Of a stretch of DNA of 64,000 bases, positions 42,406 to 63,418 are shown one piece after another. The stretch is taken from positions 62,001 through 126,000 of the forward strand of contig JACGCK010000128.1 in assembly GCA_014925825.1 (NCBI GenBank). The letters run 5' to 3'. Each line of letters opens with the position of its first letter. Position 1 is the stretch's first letter. The DNA comes from Pholiota molesta. Taxonomy: Eukaryota; Basidiomycota; Agaricomycetes; Agaricales; Strophariaceae. The notes under the pieces were generated by a model that searched no databases, had not been told where the DNA came from, and saw only the letters and a program-made list of their open reading frames with translations. A program made the translations under genes and the position numbers.

Positions 42406-45034
42406 TTAGTGCGGACCTTTGGCAGGTTCAAAGACGGGGAGAGGGTGTGCTTCTGTGTTCAACACATACCCTGAAAATCATACATGTTAATGCTTTGATC
42501 TGCGACATGAAGGAACGACTCACGATCCAGAGGTATCACGTCAGAACTTGCAAATAAGAGATACAGATACTTCAGTGTCTCGCTCTAAAAATCCCATTAG
42601 CTACAAAACCCCAACGCCAGCAAGGACAAACGCACCAAGAAGAACGTCTCCATCTTATCCTCCAGGCGCGCTGGATTCTCGTCGACGTTGATGATCGTCG
42701 CGTACCCGCCGCCCTCGACGCGGCAGTGCCTCTCGATGGCCTGGAATATCCGCCAGCCGTGGTCGCGGTAGAGCTGGTCGCCCGTGAGGCGGTACGCGAG
42801 GAAGAGCGACTCGACGGTTTCGGGGCGCAGCATGTAGCGCGCGTCGTAGGGCGGGAATTCGCCGATTCTGGGGCAAGGCGTTAGGTGAGCGAGGGGGTGG
42901 GGGAAGGGAGTATCAAGCGGGTGGACAGCTTACGCAGCGCCTTTGATGTACCAATCCGGGGGTGCGTTCGGCAGGACGTCCATCCCGTCGCTGGGCACTC
43001 TGAAGTAGACGATTTCAGGCGATAGCCCGCTATATAAGGATCCGTCAGTCAGTCAGCGTCCTCTGCTCGCGGCACATGTTACTTTGGGACGAACGCACGT
43101 TGCGGTATCATGCGTATTCATGCACGTCTTGACAAGCTCCACGCCCGTCTGCCAATCGCGCTTGCCCCTCTCAGAAGCTCTTCCGGTCGCGGGGGCACGG
43201 AGACGGCTGCGTCAGTGCGCCGGTGCGTGTGGCGCCCAGCATGAGAGAACCGCCGAGGAAGCAGACGAGGTGGTCTTGCTTCGGTGTGAGGCGCCATACC
43301 CTTTGGGTTGATGCGTGTCAGTGTCATGATAGTAGGTCTGGTAAAGCGCGCTTACAGTTCGCCCTGTGGTCCGTTTTCGGCGACGAGCTCGGATGTATAG
43401 GTCATTTTGTTGCCCATGCTCTTTTGGACGAGGTGGTTGTGGATACCGTCCATGGCGTCGTCGTACATCTGGTGATGGGTTAGTTTGGAGTGTATAAGGT
43501 GTGGGATGTTACTGCCTCACGATAAATGTCTTCCGAATTATTCTGATACGTTGATTAATGAATAAATTCCGGCCAAAGAAATTTGAGGATCTGCTTACAG
43601 TTTGGAGATATTGTTTTCTATTCAAGTGACGGAAGTTAGAATGCTGCACCTGAAGATATACATTAGACTTACAGGAGGTATTCGTAGAACGAGTCGCCAC
43701 GGAGCCAAGACGAATAGTAGACGTCTCGTATTGTCCGTTGTCGATGCTGTAAATCCTAAGTAAAGAAGTGGTCGAGAAAGAAAGTCAGAGTACTGACTTC
43801 ATGAATATAGAAGCCAATCCATGGGGAAGACGAGCGCGCTTGATAACTTGCATGACCTGCACTGAACTGAGCAATATGGCCATTGCCAAAACCCAATTTG
43901 AACGCACTTTAACAACCGCCTTCCAATAATCCTCGTTCCGGTTAGGTAGCTCAGATATCGGAACTCCAATTGGAGGGTTCCGATCTCGGCAATGCTGGAC
44001 AGCCCCGGAAAGTCGTCGGTGTGGTACCCCTTCTGCTGCGCGAGGTTGATCACAGGCAGTGGTATGCCGAGGTCCGTTTCGAATGCAGGCATCATCCGGT
44101 CCGCGAGGTCGATGGCCTTCTCGAGATACAGAGAATCATTTCCTGAAAGGTGGTATGTGGACAGTAGGCCGCCGAGTACCCGAATTGTCGTCTAACCAGC
44201 CCGGTGAGCTGGCAAAAGGGTCTCAAATTGTATGGAACGTACCTCGAATGTGCTGAACCTATCATCTCGGTCGAATGTGAGCTTCTCCGCAACCCACTTT
44301 CTCGCGCGTATGTATTCGTCTTGGAGGCCCATTATTTGCATGGTGTCCAGCACATCGACAACCATGTACCCTATGCCTCCCGCTTCTGTGAGGTTTGAGC
44401 CTCTTTTGTCGATGGGGTGATATTCATCGTCGCCCATAGCGTCTCGTTCTGGAGAAACAGGATCCTCGTTAGCCGCCATAATCCTGCGCTGCCAATAGAC
44501 CTCACCATATGCATGCCATGAATGCTACGCATAACGTCAATCCCAAGGTTCTTTCTGGCACTAGTAGATTATAACGAACCTTGAAAGCTGAGACGATAGC
44601 GTTGCGTTTTGGAACATCCGCTGGAAGGAATGTTTTGGGAGACTGATGAGCTACCGGAGCTGCATCATAGTGGTCCGAAAACCCAATCCACTCGTCAATA
44701 AAGGATGCAACGATTGCAGGATTCTAAATGTAATAGAGCAAATTTAACTCCCCGCCCACGGAAGCTCAGAGAGTACGCACCAAATATAGATATACAGCAA
44801 TAGAGAGTAATACAGGTATCCAAAGGATCGTTGACGACAATGAAGAGGTTGGACTGCCAGCGTTCGCGCCCTACGCCATGTTAAGAATAGACAATTATGA
44901 TGATGAGAGCCTTGTTCCCTTCGGGGTGACATTGACACGGAATGACAGACCTCTTTTCGTTTTTTCTGGGTATCGGTGGCCTTGTTTGTAGGAGGATCCT
45001 TCCTCAACTTCCTGCGCTGGCGAGAATCACTCAT
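42406..45034 (-). CDS. Class I alpha-1,2-mannosidase (GH47), type II membrane
   Basis: Many short exons. Start at 45034 (MSDSRQRRKLRKDPP), a basic cytosolic tail, then one membrane helix (TILWIPVLLSIAVYLYL) and a lumenal catalytic domain: HSWHAYGEVYW-like entry, FETTIRVLGGLLSTYHLSGN, TDDFPGLSSIAEIGTLQLEF, LVCFLGGSLMLGAT, YMLRPETVESLFLAYRLTGD, and the calcium-binding Thr in YVLNTEAHPLPVF near the end. These carry the conserved acidic residues of GH47. The family trims Man9GlcNAc2 in the ER or Golgi during N-glycan maturation and glycoprotein quality control. Exon borders in 43.3-44.1 kb are approximate. Divergent from the RNA-repair fusion gene. Confidence 0.88.
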
Positions 45035-45519: not shown

Positions 45520-48132
45520 ATGGATGTTACTTTCCAAAAATACGGAGGCGCCCTCGCTCTCGTCGGACCAGCTGTGGACAGCTTCGCCCATACCACTATA
45601 AACTCCAACAGTATCCCAAACCAAAATCTTGTCCCTCTCACCTCAGGGTACCACATCACCGTCATTACGAAAGACGAGCTACGAAGCCTTATGCCGGAAC
45701 AACACCTCCAAGTCAAGTCCGTCAAACCCGACACCCGACATATATTCTCAGCGGGACTTGGAGGGAAACCACACGCCGGAGCCTACTGGGTCGTCATCAT
45801 CTGGGCTGCGGGGCAGCAGATTCGGAAACAGCTGGGGCTGCCTCCTAAACATTTCCACATCACACTCTCCGCCGCCGATGTACACGACGTGGACAAAGGC
45901 GTCGGGTCCCTTCTACTCGAGGAACAACTCCCCTCGATTCATAGTGTCGAATTCCTGGACCATACCGCATTCACCTTGTATTCTTTTGGGCAGCATGAAA
46001 TTGCTCTGGATTATTGCTCCCGACTTATTCTTCTGGATTCCACCTCCTACAAAGGTTTTTTGAGAATCGCAGACATCTGGCTGATCAAGGATCAGGTCAA
46101 GTTAGCTATGCTGGCCTATGCCTGTGCGTATCAGCGCACGGCAGACGACAAACTCAAGAAATACTGCTTGAAGAAGCTCGTTGAATGCTCAAAGGGAACG
46201 GAATGGGGTGCCGTCTTTCAGGAGCACGAGATGACGCAGATCGACGAATTCAAGATCATTTCATCTTTTTTGCTACTCCTATGGTCTGCCGACCTAAAAG
46301 AGGCGCTCAGCGATCTGAAACTAGCGCCTTCTTTGCTTTTAGAACCACGACAATCACTATATATCCCTTCGCCTTTGAGATCGCCAGATACGTACAAACT
46401 CCCCCGATTTTTCCGTTGGATGGTCCCATTTCACCTAGCGGTAATGTCGACGCCGCGCAATGAAGACGATATCACAGCGCTTTCTGCTCCGTATCTCGGT
46501 ATACGACATGTGTTAACGCTCACAGAAGAGACACCATTACCCGCGTCTTGGTTCAGCAACAAGGGGATCACCAACACCTTCCTTCCCATCCCCAACTTCC
46601 ATCCGCCGTCGATCGAACAGATGGATCTCATCATAAAACTAGTCGACGACTCGAAGAAACGTCCACTTCTCATCCACTGCGGAGGTGGCAAAGGACGCGC
46701 AGGGACGGTGATCGCCTGTTATCTAGCAGCATTCGGATTCCAAAAACCTATTGCAGACCAAGACCACCCAGAAATGACCGCTGTTGAGGCTATATCAACA
46801 CTGCGTTCTCTTCGGCCTGGGAGCTTAGAAACCTCTCAGCAAGAGGCCTTCGTTTCGAAGTGGTGCAGCACAATCTGGAAGCGCCAATCAGTCTATCCCG
46901 AAGTGCAGTCGGAGCCTCCGCCGTGCCCGATGGAGGTCGAAGGCAAGCTGACGCGGGACTGCGATTTGGTGATGCTCGTCGGCCTCCCGGGATCTGGCAA
47001 ATCGTGGTTTTCGAATTCCCTGCTTGCGCGAGAGCCGGCGAAATGGCTCCGCATCTCGCAGGACGACTCCGGCAGCAGGGACGCATGCGAGACAGAGATC
47101 AGCCGCGCTCCCAAGGGCAAGCACGTTCTCCTGGACCGCTGCAACACGTCCGCCGCCGATCGGAAGCTCTGGATGCAGCTGGCGTCCAACTGGTGCGCGT
47201 CCCCGATCTGCGTGTGGTTCGACTATGGCAGGGAGCTGTGCACGTCGCGGGCGCAGATGCGCGCCGGCCATCCGACGCTGCCGCCGGGGAGTCGCGTGCG
47301 CAATGCGGTGGAGCAGATGCAGAAGATCTTCGTAAGGCCGGCGCTTGGGGAGGGGTTCAAGGCCATTGTTGTCGTGCGTTCGATCGCGGCTGCTCAAGAG
47401 GCGATTCTGCGGCTTTCAACTCCATTGACGATGTACAAGTTTCCGCGGACGCCCCATCTGATTGATGTTGGTGCAGCGACTTCCGACGATGTTCATGTCG
47501 ACATTTCTTCGCTTACTGATATGCGCGGCCACGTCGTCATCACCGAGAAAATCGACGGCGCGAATATGGGCTTTTCACTCTCTTCGGATCGTTCTCGCAT
47601 TCTAGTCCAAAACAGGTCGCACTACGTCAATTCCTCCACTCATGAACAGTTCAAAAAACTTGGGTTGTGGGTCGAACTACACGAGGAAGAGCTGCGACAC
47701 ATCCTTGACCGCGATCCTTACTTCCCCGAACGCTACATTTTGTACGGTGAATGGATGTTCGCGACGCATTCCATTCCTTACGCGGAACTCCCGGACTACT
47801 TTATCGCCTACGACATCTTCGACCGATCGACCCAATCCTGGGCGGACACGAAGGCTTTGCATGCCCTTTTGAATAGTACAACAATAAACTCAGTGCCTGT
47901 TCTTCATGAAGGGAGCATGCCCGCGGAGGCAGAGCTGTTGCAGATGGCTCAGAAGCAATCGCAGTTCTATGATGGGCGGGTGGAGGGGATCTATGTGAAG
48001 GTCGAGGTGAATGGCCAGATCAAGTCTCGCGGAAAGGTTGTCAGGAGTGATTTTATTGCTGGAAACGAGCATTGGACGCGAGGCGGTATTCGGGTGAATA
48101 CTTTGCGCTTAAGTGCTGAATCAGATCCCTAG
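45520..48132 (+). CDS. Four-domain RNA end-healing/sealing enzyme: 2H phosphoesterase - DUSP23-like phosphatase - P-loop kinase - RNA ligase
   Basis: Single exon, 870 residues. (1) Residues 1-130: two HxTx motifs, YHITV (H45) and FHITL (H113), 68 residues apart, as in 2H/ligT-type cyclic phosphodiesterases. (2) 140-285: helical, TPR-like linker. (3) 295-455: DUSP23-like phosphatase, GIRHVLTLTEE, PIPNFHPPSIEQMD, then the Cx5R loop HCGGGKGRAGT (C387, R393) and LRSLRPGSLET. (4) 480-640: P-loop kinase, MLVGLPGSGKSWFS (K494), LLDRCNTSAADRKLW, resembling AAA_33/polynucleotide kinase. (5) 645-870: RNA ligase nucleotidyltransferase, VITEKIDGAN (adenylated K677), NRSHYV, ILYGEWMFATHSIPY, YFIAYDIFD, VEGIYVKVE and KSRGKVVRSDF, in motif I-V order. 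Together these could open 2',3'-cyclic phosphate, remove phosphate, phosphorylate 5'-OH and seal RNA. Fungal Trl1 has the reverse order (ligase-kinase-CPD) and no phosphatase. The lack of introns is exceptional here. Activities are inferred from motifs only. Confidence 0.8.
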   Translation: MDVTFQKYGGALALVGPAVDSFAHTTINSNSIPNQNLVPLTSGYHITVITKDELRSLMPEQHLQVKSVKPDTRHIFSAGLGGKPHAGAYWVVIIWAAGQQIRKQLGLPPKHFHITLSAADVHDVDKGVGSLLLEEQLPSIHSVEFLDHTAFTLYSFGQHEIALDYCSRLILLDSTSYKGFLRIADIWLIKDQVKLAMLAYACAYQRTADDKLKKYCLKKLVECSKGTEWGAVFQEHEMTQIDEFKIISSFLLLLWSADLKEALSDLKLAPSLLLEPRQSLYIPSPLRSPDTYKLPRFFRWMVPFHLAVMSTPRNEDDITALSAPYLGIRHVLTLTEETPLPASWFSNKGITNTFLPIPNFHPPSIEQMDLIIKLVDDSKKRPLLIHCGGGKGRAGTVIACYLAAFGFQKPIADQDHPEMTAVEAISTLRSLRPGSLETSQQEAFVSKWCSTIWKRQSVYPEVQSEPPPCPMEVEGKLTRDCDLVMLVGLPGSGKSWFSNSLLAREPAKWLRISQDDSGSRDACETEISRAPKGKHVLLDRCNTSAADRKLWMQLASNWCASPICVWFDYGRELCTSRAQMRAGHPTLPPGSRVRNAVEQMQKIFVRPALGEGFKAIVVVRSIAAAQEAILRLSTPLTMYKFPRTPHLIDVGAATSDDVHVDISSLTDMRGHVVITEKIDGANMGFSLSSDRSRILVQNRSHYVNSSTHEQFKKLGLWVELHEEELRHILDRDPYFPERYILYGEWMFATHSIPYAELPDYFIAYDIFDRSTQSWADTKALHALLNSTTINSVPVLHEGSMPAEAELLQMAQKQSQFYDGRVEGIYVKVEVNGQIKSRGKVVRSDFIAGNEHWTRGGIRVNTLRLSAESDP

Positions 48133-50004
<1,872 letters not shown>

Positions 50005-58137: not shown

Positions 58138-61100
58138 ATGAATACGCAATCACAGGCGCCCCCGAGGAACCCCAGCACCATATTTGCTACAGGTCAGTCG
58201 TCCGGACATATACGTAGTGGATCGCTAATACTCTCAATGTAGGCGCCGGGACTTGGCCACGCATAAAGGGGGGCGGACGCACGCAGAGCTCAGACTCAGA
58301 CACCGAACGAGAGTATCGCTCGACCTCGCGATCAGACCCTTCTTCCCAATCCCAGTCCCAGACACGCAACGGCCGCGGCGCGAACGGCCACCGAAGTCCA
58401 GAAGGACGAGTCAGCGCCTCGATAGAGACCACCCCGGATCCTGCCCCTCCTGTGCCTTACTGGTCAGCGAAGCGCCACCTGACATGCGGAAACCCGACCC
58501 CAGACCCGTATTGGTCGCTGAAGAACCTGAACTGGCGCGGTGCAGCGCCCGGGAAGCTGAAGACGGCGACGGCAGCCTTGGTGATCTGCCTCAACATCGA
58601 CGTTGATCCGCCCGATGTCGTCAAAACGAACCCTTGCGCCGTTTTGGAGTGTTGGGTCGATCCACATACGATGCCATCCCACAAAGCGTTGGAGGCAATA
58701 GGCTCAAATCTACAGCATCAATTCGAAGGACTCAGCCTCAAGATTTCGTACAAACCCATCCTCGACCCGTCATCAGACGACCTCAAACGTTTCTGTCAGA
58801 CCTTGCGTCGATCGGCGAAGGATGACGCCATCCTTTTCTACTACAATGGCCACGGTGTCCCGAAACCTACTGCGAGCGGAGAACTTTGGTGCTTCAACAA
58901 GAACTACACTCAGTACATCCCGGTATCGCTACAGGAAGTGCAAGGTTGGTTAGGATCACCCGGAGTCTATATATGGGATTGCTCAGCAGCCGGCAATCTA
59001 TTAACGAACTTCAACATGTACGCGGAGAAACGGGACCAGGAAGTGTATATGACGCACGGTGGGTATCCAGAAGGCGTCCAACCGATGATGAACTCGCTCC
59101 AGCTTGCTGCATGTGGTGCGAACGAAAACCTGCCTTCATGTCCAGAACTCCCAGCCGACATCTTCACATCATGCCTGACTTCTCCCATCGACATTGCTTT
59201 GCGCTATTTCATCATGAACCACCAACTTCCGAACAACATCACCGCCGACATGGTTATGCAACTCCCTGGCGACCTCAAAGATCGCCGTACACCTCTGGGC
59301 GAGCTAAACTGGATTTTCACTGCTGTCACTGATACCATCGCATGGACAACCTTCTCTCGCGAGACATTCACGCGTCTGTACCGCTGCGACCTGCTCATCG
59401 CATCTCTTTTCCGTAACTTTTTACTTGCCGAACGCATCATGAAGAACTACCATTGCACGCCACACACCTACCCGCCTCTCCCCGCCACCAATACACACCC
59501 TATGTGGGCCACCTGGGATCTCGCGGTGGACACGTGTCTGCGCCAGCTGCCCGAGCTTCTTGCCAAATCGCCCGCGCTACCGCTCAGCCCTGGGTCTGCG
59601 GTCGTCAGTGTCGGAAGTGTCGCGATGACACCTGGCCGAATTGGCCAGACCCGCCAGGACGCGGCCAAAGCGCATGGCGAGCGGGCGTATTCGTACACCC
59701 CGAGCCGATTCTTCGCGGACCAACTGACGGCATTTGAGGTGTGGATCTCGCGCGGCGGCTCGGCGCTGACGAAGAAAGGACCGATGTCGCTGCCCGCGCA
59801 ACCGCCAGAGATGACCACCACCACGACTGGCGCAACGACGACGGGTGCCGTTGTTGCCTCTGCCGCTGGGACGGCCGCTACTGCGCTTGCTGCTACTAGT
59901 GGCACGGCCACCGGCACCGAGGTGGTCAAAGCCCCACCGTCCGAGCCTGAACCTGAACACCATCTCGTGCCCAGGAAACCGCCCGACCAGCTCCCAATTG
60001 TCTTGCAAGTGCTGCTGTCGCAGCCTCACAGACTGCGCGCGCTCATCCTCCTATCCCAATTCGTGGACCTCGGGCCGTGGGCGGTGCATCTGGTGCTGAC
60101 CATTGGCATCTTCCCGTATATATCGAAACTGCTGCAGGCGGCCGGCCCCGACCTCCGACCGGTGCTGATATTCATCTGGGCGCGCATTCTGGCGGTGGAC
60201 GCGTCGGTGCAGACGGACCTGTACAACTCGACCGGGTTCCGCTACTTCTCGCACGTGCTCGGGCTGAAGAACGAAGACCAGCTCCCGAACAGCAGCGAGC
60301 ACAAGGCGATGTGCTCGTTCATCCTCGCCTCGATCTCGCGCGACTTCCCGCACGGGCAGAGCGCGTGCTGGGGCGAGAAGGTGTTCGACAACTGCTACGA
60401 CCGCCTGGAGGAGCCCGACTTTCTGCTGCGGCAGTGGACAGCGCTGTGTATTGCGCAGATGTGGGACGCCCACGATGAGATCAGGGTGTATGGCGTGGAT
60501 CGGGGGACGCAGGACAAGCTGATTTCGATGCTCTCGGATGACTCGGCGGAGGTGCGGGCGGCCGCTCTTTATGCGCTGGGCACTTTCATGGGCGCTAGTG
60601 GGTCCGCGAACCCGAACATTCATGGCGGGGGTGGTACAGGGACTATGTACCAACTAGAGGAACGCGTACACTTCCGGATGGAGGTGGCTGTCGCCACCGG
60701 CGCCACACTGGCTATCAAGGAAGACGCAAGCCCTATGTGTCGCAAGGAGTTACTGGTGGTTATTAGCTGCCTTGTGAAAGAGTGGCGCGGGTACTTTGTC
60801 GTTTGCGCGTGGTTGTACTGGGAAGAAGACAGGCGCTGGCGTTCGGGTTCGCTTGGACATAACGCCCCGTCAACCCACTATCACGAAGATGACATCACGA
60901 ATCAGGCAGTAGCGGAGTGGCTCGAAGGATTTGGCGAGGATGATGCGCTGCGAGAAGAAAACAGGGTGCTGCTCTCTTCCTTCTTCACCATATTCGTTTT
61001 GCTCTTGGACCTTTCAGTGGACCCGTATAACGAAGTGGCCACGAACGCGCAAACAATTGTCGACTACATCATGGCTCTCCTCCTCGAATCGCCCTTCACC

Positions 61101-63418
61101 CGACTCGAATCTACGTCTCTGCATACAGCGCCTACCGTTCCGCACGAAAAGCGTGGCTCGCCTCAATTAGGAAACGCGCGTACCCGTGTGGCCTCCCTCC
61201 AAACTTCGCCACCCTTCAGCCACATACCACCGCCCTCCCCTGGCGGCGAGCGTCCAGGCTTGTCGCGGAACGACAGCATGGCAAGCACGATCGCGGGCAG
61301 CGTCTCCAACACCCTCAAGCGGACATCTTCCTTCGCCAATGCTCTAAAAGCGCTCGGAGGCATCGCCTTCCCTACGCCCGAGGACGGACGGGCGTCGCCC
61401 AGCCTCAGCCTCGCTAGTACGCTCCTGCCCAGCCAGCTACGGCACGAGCGCTACCAGGACACATCGGTGGACGTCTCGCGCCCGCCATCGCCGAATATGA
61501 ACGTGGCGCAATACGCCTCGCCCTACTCCTATCCATCTACGTCATCCCAAAAAGCCAGAACTGCCACTCCTCCACCAGCGTCCCCGCGCTCGGTGGAGAA
61601 CCCGCCGATGGACTTCCTGCCGTGCGATGTCATGGAGGCTCTGATGGAGGAGGATATGGAGCGTCTGCGCGCACGGCGCAAGGCAGGGCTGAACGCACGT
61701 CGGCAGCAAACTGGCGCCTCGCTGCCCAGTCCCAGCAATAGCACATTCTCTATGGACTCGAATGCGAGCAGCGTTATCCTCGGGCTTGGTACTGGTTCTA
61801 GCATTCGCGATGTTCTGCCTTTGAAGAGTACATTCTTTGACTGGTGCGCGGAGTATTTCAAGGAACCACAAATGAGGGTATGTGCGCATTGTTTGTCGTT
61901 GGCGGTCTTTAAATTGATTGATTTTGTTTTCCGAACCTGCAGCAAGCGGAGGCCGATGAGCCGGGAAGTGCTCAGTACAATTATCAAGTATGGAGGCAGA
62001 TGCGTAATGACCAAGTCATTAAAGAGACTGAAGCCCAAGCTCCGTTGGCCGAGAAAAGTCGATGGGATCGCCCGGTCACCACTCTGAACATCTCTGGACA
62101 CCCTTTGACGATGGCGTTCCATGCCTATGATAACCATCTTATTGTTGCAAACGAACATGATATGATTAGGTTCGTCTCATGTCTTTCTGTTGATAACCTC
62201 TTCCTCATTCACTTTAGTGTCTTTGACTGGAGCACCCGCAAACGTCTGAATTATTTCTGCAACGGAAACCCAAAGGGCACCAGCATCACTGCACTCGAGA
62301 TTATCAATCAAGACGTCGGTGGGATCATATTAACTGGATCTGGTAAGTTGCTATCGTGCGCGTTTTGGTAATCCTTAGGCTGATCTTCGTCTCAGCGGAT
62401 GGCATCGTTCGACTGTATCGCAACTACGATCCTACCCTTGAACAAGGGCCCTTGCAGATGGTCAGCGCATTCCGCGGCCTAAATGAAATCGTGCAGTCAC
62501 GTCAAGGAACCGGTCTTGTCATGGATTGGAAGCAGACCGCTGGCACACTATTGCTAGGAGGCGATTCTCGTGTCATCAAGGTTTGGGATGCCCAGACGGA
62601 AACACAAGGCCTGGTGCGTATTCTACTTTTCCCAAACGATTCTTATGGCTTATAACATTTTTACAGGATCTGCTAACAAATTCGGAAAGCCCTGTAACTG
62701 CCATCGCGTCTGACTCGGGATCTTCCCAGACTTTCCTGGCGAGTTTCGCTGATGGCGTGGTGAAGGTCTTCGATCGTCGCTTGGAGGACGACGACGCTAT
62801 TGTTCGTACTTACGCAGACCATTCTTCATGGGTGCAAAATGTCCACTGGCATCCGACACTGAGTGGGCAATTCTTGTCTGCAAGGTGAGTTTTCGGTGTT
62901 TCGATAGGCAGTGATCGTCTGTCTCACTTTCTGCTTTTTATCAGTCTCGATGGTCAAGTCAAGCTGTTTGACCTCCGAGGTTCCGACTTCGCAAGCAAGA
63001 CGTGGTGTCCACAGAAATATGGCCTTTCTGCATTTGACGTTCATCCGATTTCAGGAGTGTTTGGGACGTGAGTGGACTCGTTTTTCTGGATAGCATTGAC
63101 CTTGGTTCTAATAAATTGAATAGTAATTCGTCGATTTCTCCCGTCTACTGGCGATCTCAGCGTATTGTTCTTCATTCGCTGAAGCAAAATACGACACTGT
63201 CTGCATTCAACATATCCACAGGTCTGACTACCCCTCCCACTCGCGGGCTTCCATCTCCCTTTATACCAAGATCAAGTTCTTTCGTCTTCCACCCTACTCA
63301 AATGATCTATGCCAACGGTGGACCGGATGGTTCTGGTATGTCCGGGTTTATGTTTCATATTTCCATCGACTAATCAACGCCATTCGTAGTCAAAATAATG
63401 GGTTGCAAACTCAATTAG
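58138..63418 (+). CDS. KOG1: KOG1/Raptor, TORC1 scaffold subunit
   Basis: First exon 58138-58192 (MNTQSQAPPRNPSTIFAT), then one very large exon 58243-61876, then small exons carrying the WD40 repeats, ending MGCKLN at 63418. Raptor N-terminal conserved (caspase-like) domain: LNWRGAAPGKLKTATAALVI, VLECWVDPHTMPSHKALEAI, ILFYYNGHGVPKPTASGELW, FNKNYTQYIPVSLQEVQ and VYIWDCSAAGNL. HEAT-like repeats follow (60.0-61.1 kb), a Ser/Pro-rich linker (61.1-61.8 kb) and a WD40 propeller (62.0-63.4 kb; for example DGIVRLYRNYDP). The protein presents substrates to the TOR kinase and is essential for nutrient control of growth; it acts at the vacuole/lysosome surface. Size (about 1,500 residues) matches fungal Kog1. 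Confidence 0.95.

Follow-up and report, generated by a model that had tools for sequence, protein, structure and literature searches.

What task could call for two histidine motifs, a cysteine phosphatase loop, a kinase P-loop and a ligase lysine in one polypeptide? The question is raised by a reading frame at 45,520-48,132 (+ strand) of a 64,000-nucleotide stretch of Pholiota molesta DNA (contig JACGCK010000128.1), which is referred to here as the window. The frame runs for 870 codons without interruption and encodes a complete 870-residue protein, in which a 2H phosphoesterase, a TPR-like linker, a cysteine phosphatase (PTP), a polynucleotide kinase and an RNA ligase follow one another. A preliminary description of the locus had claimed four catalytic modules in a single frame of this length, and the uninterrupted frame with four Pfam matches above their cut-offs bears this out; H45, H113, C387/R393, K494 and K677 were likewise all found where that description had placed them. 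The protein, called SAK below, very probably functions in RNA end-healing and sealing.

The modules, all encoded on the + strand, can be delimited as follows. The 2H domain (45,550-45,885; residues 11-122) matches PF22547 (2H-SAK) with 84.3 bits against a cut-off of 27 (E 1.1e-23) and contains two HxT/S motifs, H45xT (H45 at 45,652-45,654) and H113xT (H113 at 45,856-45,858). The TPR-like linker of predicted helices (45,946-46,314; residues 143-265), which probably connects the domains or serves as a docking site for a partner, had escaped the preliminary description, as had N359 at the general-acid position of the phosphatase. The DUSP23-type cysteine phosphatase (46,402-46,854; residues 295-445) matches PF22784 (PTP-SAK) with 196.2 bits against a cut-off of 27 (E 4e-58), and has the nucleophile C387 at 46,678-46,680 and R393 at 46,696-46,698. 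The P-loop 5'-OH polynucleotide kinase (46,960-47,421; residues 481-634), with the key residues K494 (46,999-47,001), D515, D539 and R581, matches AAA_33 (PF13671) above its cut-off over residues 483-601 (E 2.2e-13). The ligase (47,422-48,072; residues 635-851) matches RNA_ligase (PF09414), also above the cut-off, over residues 671-840 (E 2e-36), and its K677, the lysine to be adenylated, lies at 47,548-47,550 in the motif EKIDGAN. Profile matching thus upheld both the 2H and the ligase assignment.

Structure prediction agreed with most of this assignment. The domains fold with good confidence, and three of them match the expected solved folds: the phosphatase that of DUSP23, the kinase those of fungal and bacterial Pnk, and the ligase those of T4 Rnl2 and NgrRnl. 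The 2H domain and linker, folded alone, gave a pLDDT of 91.5 and a pTM of 0.87; no solved 2H chain was among the PDB structure matches of the 2H region, where TPR chains filled the list. The pTM of the full-length model (0.56) is too low for the domain arrangement to be read from it. By sequence, the best matches of the kinase domain were the Lichtheimia and Rhizopus kinases of PDB entries 9drz and 9d8a, for which a literature search found no paper.

Is the architecture new? The novelty implied by the preliminary description does not hold, because Pfam already names the 2H-SAK and PTP-SAK models 'Swiss Army Knife' domains; the naming paper is reportedly that of Burroughs and Aravind from 2016. 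The Pholiota protein shares both domains with this family, above the curated cut-offs, and has the kinase and ligase in the same chain; it differs in that the phosphatase of the fungal clade contains N359 and E437 instead of the Asp, and in that some mushrooms lack a 2H histidine. The fungal tRNA ligase Trl1 also combines a ligase, a kinase and a 2H-type phosphoesterase in one chain, in the order ligase-kinase-CPD. SAK resembles Trl1 in uniting these three, but has an Rnl2-like ligase, an additional phosphatase, the TPR-like linker and, as had been proposed, another domain order, which is 2H-PTP-kinase-ligase by Pfam. A passage of PMC3400036 likewise describes the Trl1 phosphoesterase as being of the 2H type. 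Human DUSP23 (VHZ) shares with SAK the PTP fold, the CX5R loop and an equivalent of Glu134, but is a stand-alone enzyme and retains Asp65 where SAK has N359. The bacterial Pnkp1-Rnl-Hen1 complex similarly gathers active sites for the repair of ribotoxin-cut RNA, but comprises three proteins, and the abstract and outline of PMC4411300 mention no 2H or PTP domain for it. The name 'Swiss-army-knife' denotes a HAD phosphatase in passages of PMC7824862 and PMC9503650.

The ligase itself is a minimal Rnl2-like enzyme. It shows the nucleotidyltransferase fold, the K677 motif and the downstream motif residues of the Rnl2 type, and resembles stand-alone phage and bacterial ligases in sequence. The earlier proposal that it is nearer to bacterial stand-alone ligases than to Trl1 is supported by Foldseek, with E 2.5e-7 and 3.2e-6 for the Naegleria and T4 Rnl2 folds and 4.8e-5 for the Trl1-type tRNA ligase 6n0t, and by the lack of any match in SAK to RNA_lig_T4_1 at E ≤ 1. 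At this level tRNA_lig_CPD gave no match either (the filters of HMMER discard most hits weaker than about 0.1). Rnl2 has a C-terminal domain, for which SAK leaves no room: its last residue, 870, lies about 20 residues past the nucleotidyltransferase domain. The Rnl2 equivalog TIGR02307 scored 13.6 bits against a cut-off of 197.

A GTDB scan yielded 241 relatives of the ligase, and the loci of the best 80 were kept. An HD-kinase gene was strictly adjacent to the ligase gene in 63 of these 80; in 12 more it was present on the same strand at another position of the locus (75 on the looser total), and in five it was absent, as judged by a profile built from 23 of the 80 loci that it scanned. The two HD-kinase partners checked in Pfam contain HD and AAA_33. 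SAK-type 2H, TPR-like or PTP domains were found in none of the 80 loci (flanks of up to 6 kb, some shorter), and broader 2H and PTP profiles again gave no match in these flanks. The adjacency indicates that this ligase type belongs with end-healing enzymes, as HD-Pnk is called in a title cited by PMC9146567; the link between the ligase type and HD-kinase genes may already be known. SAK may be viewed as uniting in one chain what bacteria divide between two genes, a ligase of the same family and a neighbouring kinase that bears a phosphohydrolase domain, with 2H and PTP taking the place of the bacterial HD.

Is the fused protein maintained by selection? The searched genome (65.6 Mb, 625 contigs) contains a second SAK copy, on contig C79, which differs at 40 of 870 residues (95% identical); the two copies would represent the two nuclei of the dikaryon. 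A dN of 0.024 and a dS of 0.147 for the pair (dN/dS 0.17) indicate purifying selection on the gene, and the ratio ranges from about 0.11 in the TPR-like linker and the kinase to about 0.29 in the 2H domain. Of the 7,988 candidates scored in a protein search, 635 matched SAK at E ≤ 1e-3, and all four Pfam domains were present in 116 of the 120 matches listed, as read from the table, so the architecture is not a product of chance. In a set of 118 mushroom-type sequences of 780-1300 residues, including the Pholiota protein, C387, R393, E437, Q441, K494, D515, D539, R581, R592, K677, R699 and E744 are each present in every row. Among 75 more distant rows (those of at least 540 residues among P0122-P0199, pooled from both distant searches), C387 and R393 are again kept throughout. 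The key residues of the kinase and the ligase are near-invariant across both sets except for K827 of ligase motif IV, found in one of the 71 filled distant rows, most of which have Arg there.

The 2H histidines are less well kept in mushrooms. H45 is present in 108 and H113 in 112 of the 118 mushroom-type rows; 14 rows deviate, one (P0120) by a gap alone and 13 by substitution, with all 13 other scored catalytic residues intact. Both histidines are affected, in different species, and part of the substitutions may be gene-model errors. Of the 61 distant rows that have a residue in both columns, 60 keep the pair intact. With 13 rows lacking a 2H histidine, a full four-step series cannot be universal, and the losses suggest that a different enzyme can open the cyclic phosphate or that this step is sometimes dispensable.

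The architecture occurs in mushrooms, in other fungi and in probable protists; on one contig, classified as viral, it is divided between two genes. Among the 120 matches listed, the named organisms are all ones that we take to be Agaricomycetes, and many rows are metagenome proteins. Four distant SAK proteins, one of them from Geranomyces, came up with a phage-ligase query that had been padded. When the distant protein P0122 was used as query, 75 proteins were obtained at E ≤ 1e-10, P0122 included, from Fimicolochytrium, Allomyces, Mortierella, Kockovaella, Vanrija, Myriangium and Rhodosporidiobolus, as well as MMETSP and EukProt entries and many nameless sequences; the same four Pfam domains are found in these fungal and probable protist relatives. 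The name probable protists for the second clade reflects the MMETSP and EukProt origin of the few members that carry a label. One protein placed within it, P0172, is labelled 'archaeon' and was probably mis-binned. Comparison with viral structure models recovered an 859-residue Terrestrivirus protein, 26% identical across 915 columns (E 1.2e-57, TM 0.27), and a 649-residue Bodo saltans virus protein (E 1.6e-32). One of 46 IMG/VR loci (L107:4947-7395) contains a 565-residue 2H+PTP+kinase gene and, next to it on the opposite strand, a 257-residue ligase gene; the flanks of the other 45 contain no 2H or PTP match. The split genes adjoin M13 peptidase and IMP dehydrogenase genes, so the contig is not necessarily viral, though filed as such. 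A genome scan with the full-length SAK alignment gave 28 pattern matches and a viral-contig scan with P0123 gave two, with no relative in either.

What kind of phosphatase is fused to these end-processing domains? A dual-specificity phosphatase had been proposed. The DUSP23-type fold and the HCX5R loop with C387 and R393 (118/118) stand, but the IPD-loop Asp is absent, and the domain is therefore not a plain enzyme of this type. Counted along the alignment, human DUSP23 Asp65 corresponds to N359 (46,594-46,596, +) and Glu134 to E437 (46,828-46,830, +), which makes E437 the candidate general acid. All five solved sequences aligned, including two of human DUSP23 and one of an engineered archaeal PTP, have Asp at position 359. 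The 118 mushroom-type rows have Asn there in 116 cases, Asp in one and a gap in one. According to a passage in PMC9038691, Glu134 is the primary acid of DUSP23 and Asp65 is subordinate. The D63N variant of the engineered archaeal PTP is described, in a passage of PMC12848742, as about 70-fold slower with its basic limb retained.

Among 193 proteins (six of 199 were left out for length), 129 combine Asn359 with Glu437, 60 combine Asp359 with Leu, Met or Ile at 437, three (Lyophyllum, Allomyces and Rhodosporidiobolus) have both Asp and Glu, one has a gap with Glu, and none has Asn without Glu. The 60 rows of the sister clade thus keep Asp359 and have no conserved Glu at 437, where the residue read depends on the anchor: in 58 of them the Q-loop has one residue fewer, and position 437 is Leu, Met or Ile in 60/60 when anchored on the invariant Gln (Q441), or Ser in 42/60 and Asp or Glu in 7/60 when anchored on R432. 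The distant alignment has 95 rows, and a quick-method tree of the kinase and ligase was built from the 83 with at least 780 residues and more than 250 residues in the kinase-ligase region. This tree separates 32 rows containing the named fungi from 51 others, with a support of 99 for each split, and requires four changes at site 359 and one at site 437; these few events point to a clade-level exchange and are not strong statistics. Since DUSP23 carries both acids, the ancestor likely possessed both as well, and each clade would have lost one. The Asp/Asn and Glu/non-Glu states of the sister clades provide natural variants for the question of the catalytic acid in PTPs. The N359/E437 state was not found in the open-access literature, with queries directed at other subjects and the SAK naming paper outside their scope. 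Neither the acid exchange nor the 2H decay in some mushrooms was found in print in the literature searched; the same holds for SAK alongside Trl1/Tpt1-type genes without RtcB, as in the Pholiota genome.

How might the activities work together in the cell? The Pholiota genome contains Trl1-type ligase and CPD exons on contigs C37/C184 and PTS_2-RNA (Tpt1-type) exons on four contigs, and gave no RtcB match at E ≤ 1e-3, a search in which nine of 14 control genomes matched. With these exons present and RtcB unmatched, SAK looks like a second RNA-sealing route beside Trl1/Tpt1. Rnl2-like ligases are not expected to need a 2'-phosphate, which leaves a job for the phosphatase. According to passages of PMC3400036, RtcB may have been lost in most Basidiomycota, and the CPD of yeast and plants leaves a 2'-phosphate on which ligation there typically depends. 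A 2'-phosphate left by 2H phosphoesterases needs further processing, for which a passage of PMC9503650 gives KptA/Tpt1 as one means. Besides SAK and the Trl1-type exons, this genome encodes a stand-alone RNA ligase of 442 residues (PF09511, Rnl1 type; C333, about 262,500-263,820, - strand; L105:997-2325:-).

From the domains, folds, conservation and co-occurrence observed, we infer the reactions, their order, the role of E437 and the RNA target. We somewhat favour the view that SAK is a single-chain repair enzyme for RNA that ribonucleases have cut to 2',3'-cyclic phosphate and 5'-OH ends, working through the following scheme. The 2H domain would open the cyclic phosphate, to a 2'-phosphate if it behaves like the fungal Trl1 CPD. 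The phosphatase would strip the remaining ribose phosphate through a phosphocysteine at C387, with E437 as the acid rather than a WPD-loop Asp; we regard removal of a ribose phosphate in this manner as evenly poised. The kinase would phosphorylate the 5'-OH end, and the ligase, adenylated at K677, would join the 5'-phosphate to the 3'-OH, giving a junction without a 2'-phosphate. SAK would operate alongside Trl1/Tpt1, which would handle tRNA splicing. Removal of a 2'-phosphate in particular, tRNA or rRNA as targets and a connection with ribotoxins may be envisaged. If the scheme is right, the tRNA ligase of mushrooms is accompanied by an enzyme able to mend RNA on its own. Only tentatively do we go further and propose that the fungal SAK phosphatase is a Cys-based RNA ribose-phosphate (2'- or 3'-) phosphatase in which the Q-loop Glu has permanently taken over the part of general acid from the WPD-loop Asp. 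It would then be a natural PTP operating without a WPD-loop acid, and an NAD-independent alternative to Tpt1, acting before ligation, in a fungus without detectable RtcB.

Other functions can be considered for the same domains. SAK has the three kinds of activity found in Trl1, in another order, and might have replaced it as the tRNA splicing ligase of Pholiota; this is highly improbable, given the Trl1-type ligase, CPD and Tpt1-type exons of the same genome and the lack of a Trl1-type ligase or CPD family match in SAK at E ≤ 1. It also appears quite improbable that the kinase and ligase alone form the working core, with the phosphatase and 2H domains serving mainly in regulation or sensing: the 13 mushroom-type rows with a substituted 2H histidine would fit such a role, but C387 and R393 persist in 118/118 mushroom-type and 75/75 distant rows, and the 2H pair is whole in 60/61 filled distant rows.

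The loss of the canonical WPD Asp admits yet another substrate. Passages of PMC9038691 report that the WPD motif is absent from MCE1, the baculovirus phosphatase, DUSP11 and Siw14, and that AtPFA-DSP1 is proposed to cleave inositol pyrophosphates without any residue serving as acid. Cleavers of phosphoanhydrides thus occur among PTPs without a WPD acid, and a 5'-triphosphate or some other substrate is conceivable for SAK, the domain acting like the PTP-fold RNA 5'-triphosphatases in converting 5'-ppp to 5'-p before ligation, with the 2H product handled elsewhere. We consider this unlikely: E437, which corresponds to the alternative acid in DUSP23, is present in all 118 mushroom-type rows, although an enzyme working without an acid would have no use for it; the sister clade retains Asp at 359; and the solved proteins nearest to the domain in sequence include DUSP23. 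The triphosphatase reading, first prompted by N359, was demoted after the invariance of E437 and the literature on Glu134 had been considered.

The neighbouring genes were also noted. Upstream of the SAK gene, an exon that matches glycosyl hydrolase family 47 lies on the opposite strand (44,192-44,479, -). Farther along the window, an ORF of 1211 residues (58,452-62,084, +) contains Raptor_N and HEAT repeat matches and likely encodes Raptor, judging by these domains, presumably the TORC1 subunit. A pfkB-type kinase exon lies downstream of SAK (49,529-49,936, +), and a pfkB domain is fused to SAK in a gene model of Mycena maculata (P0075), which suggests either that the two genes have stayed neighbours or that they were merged in that model.
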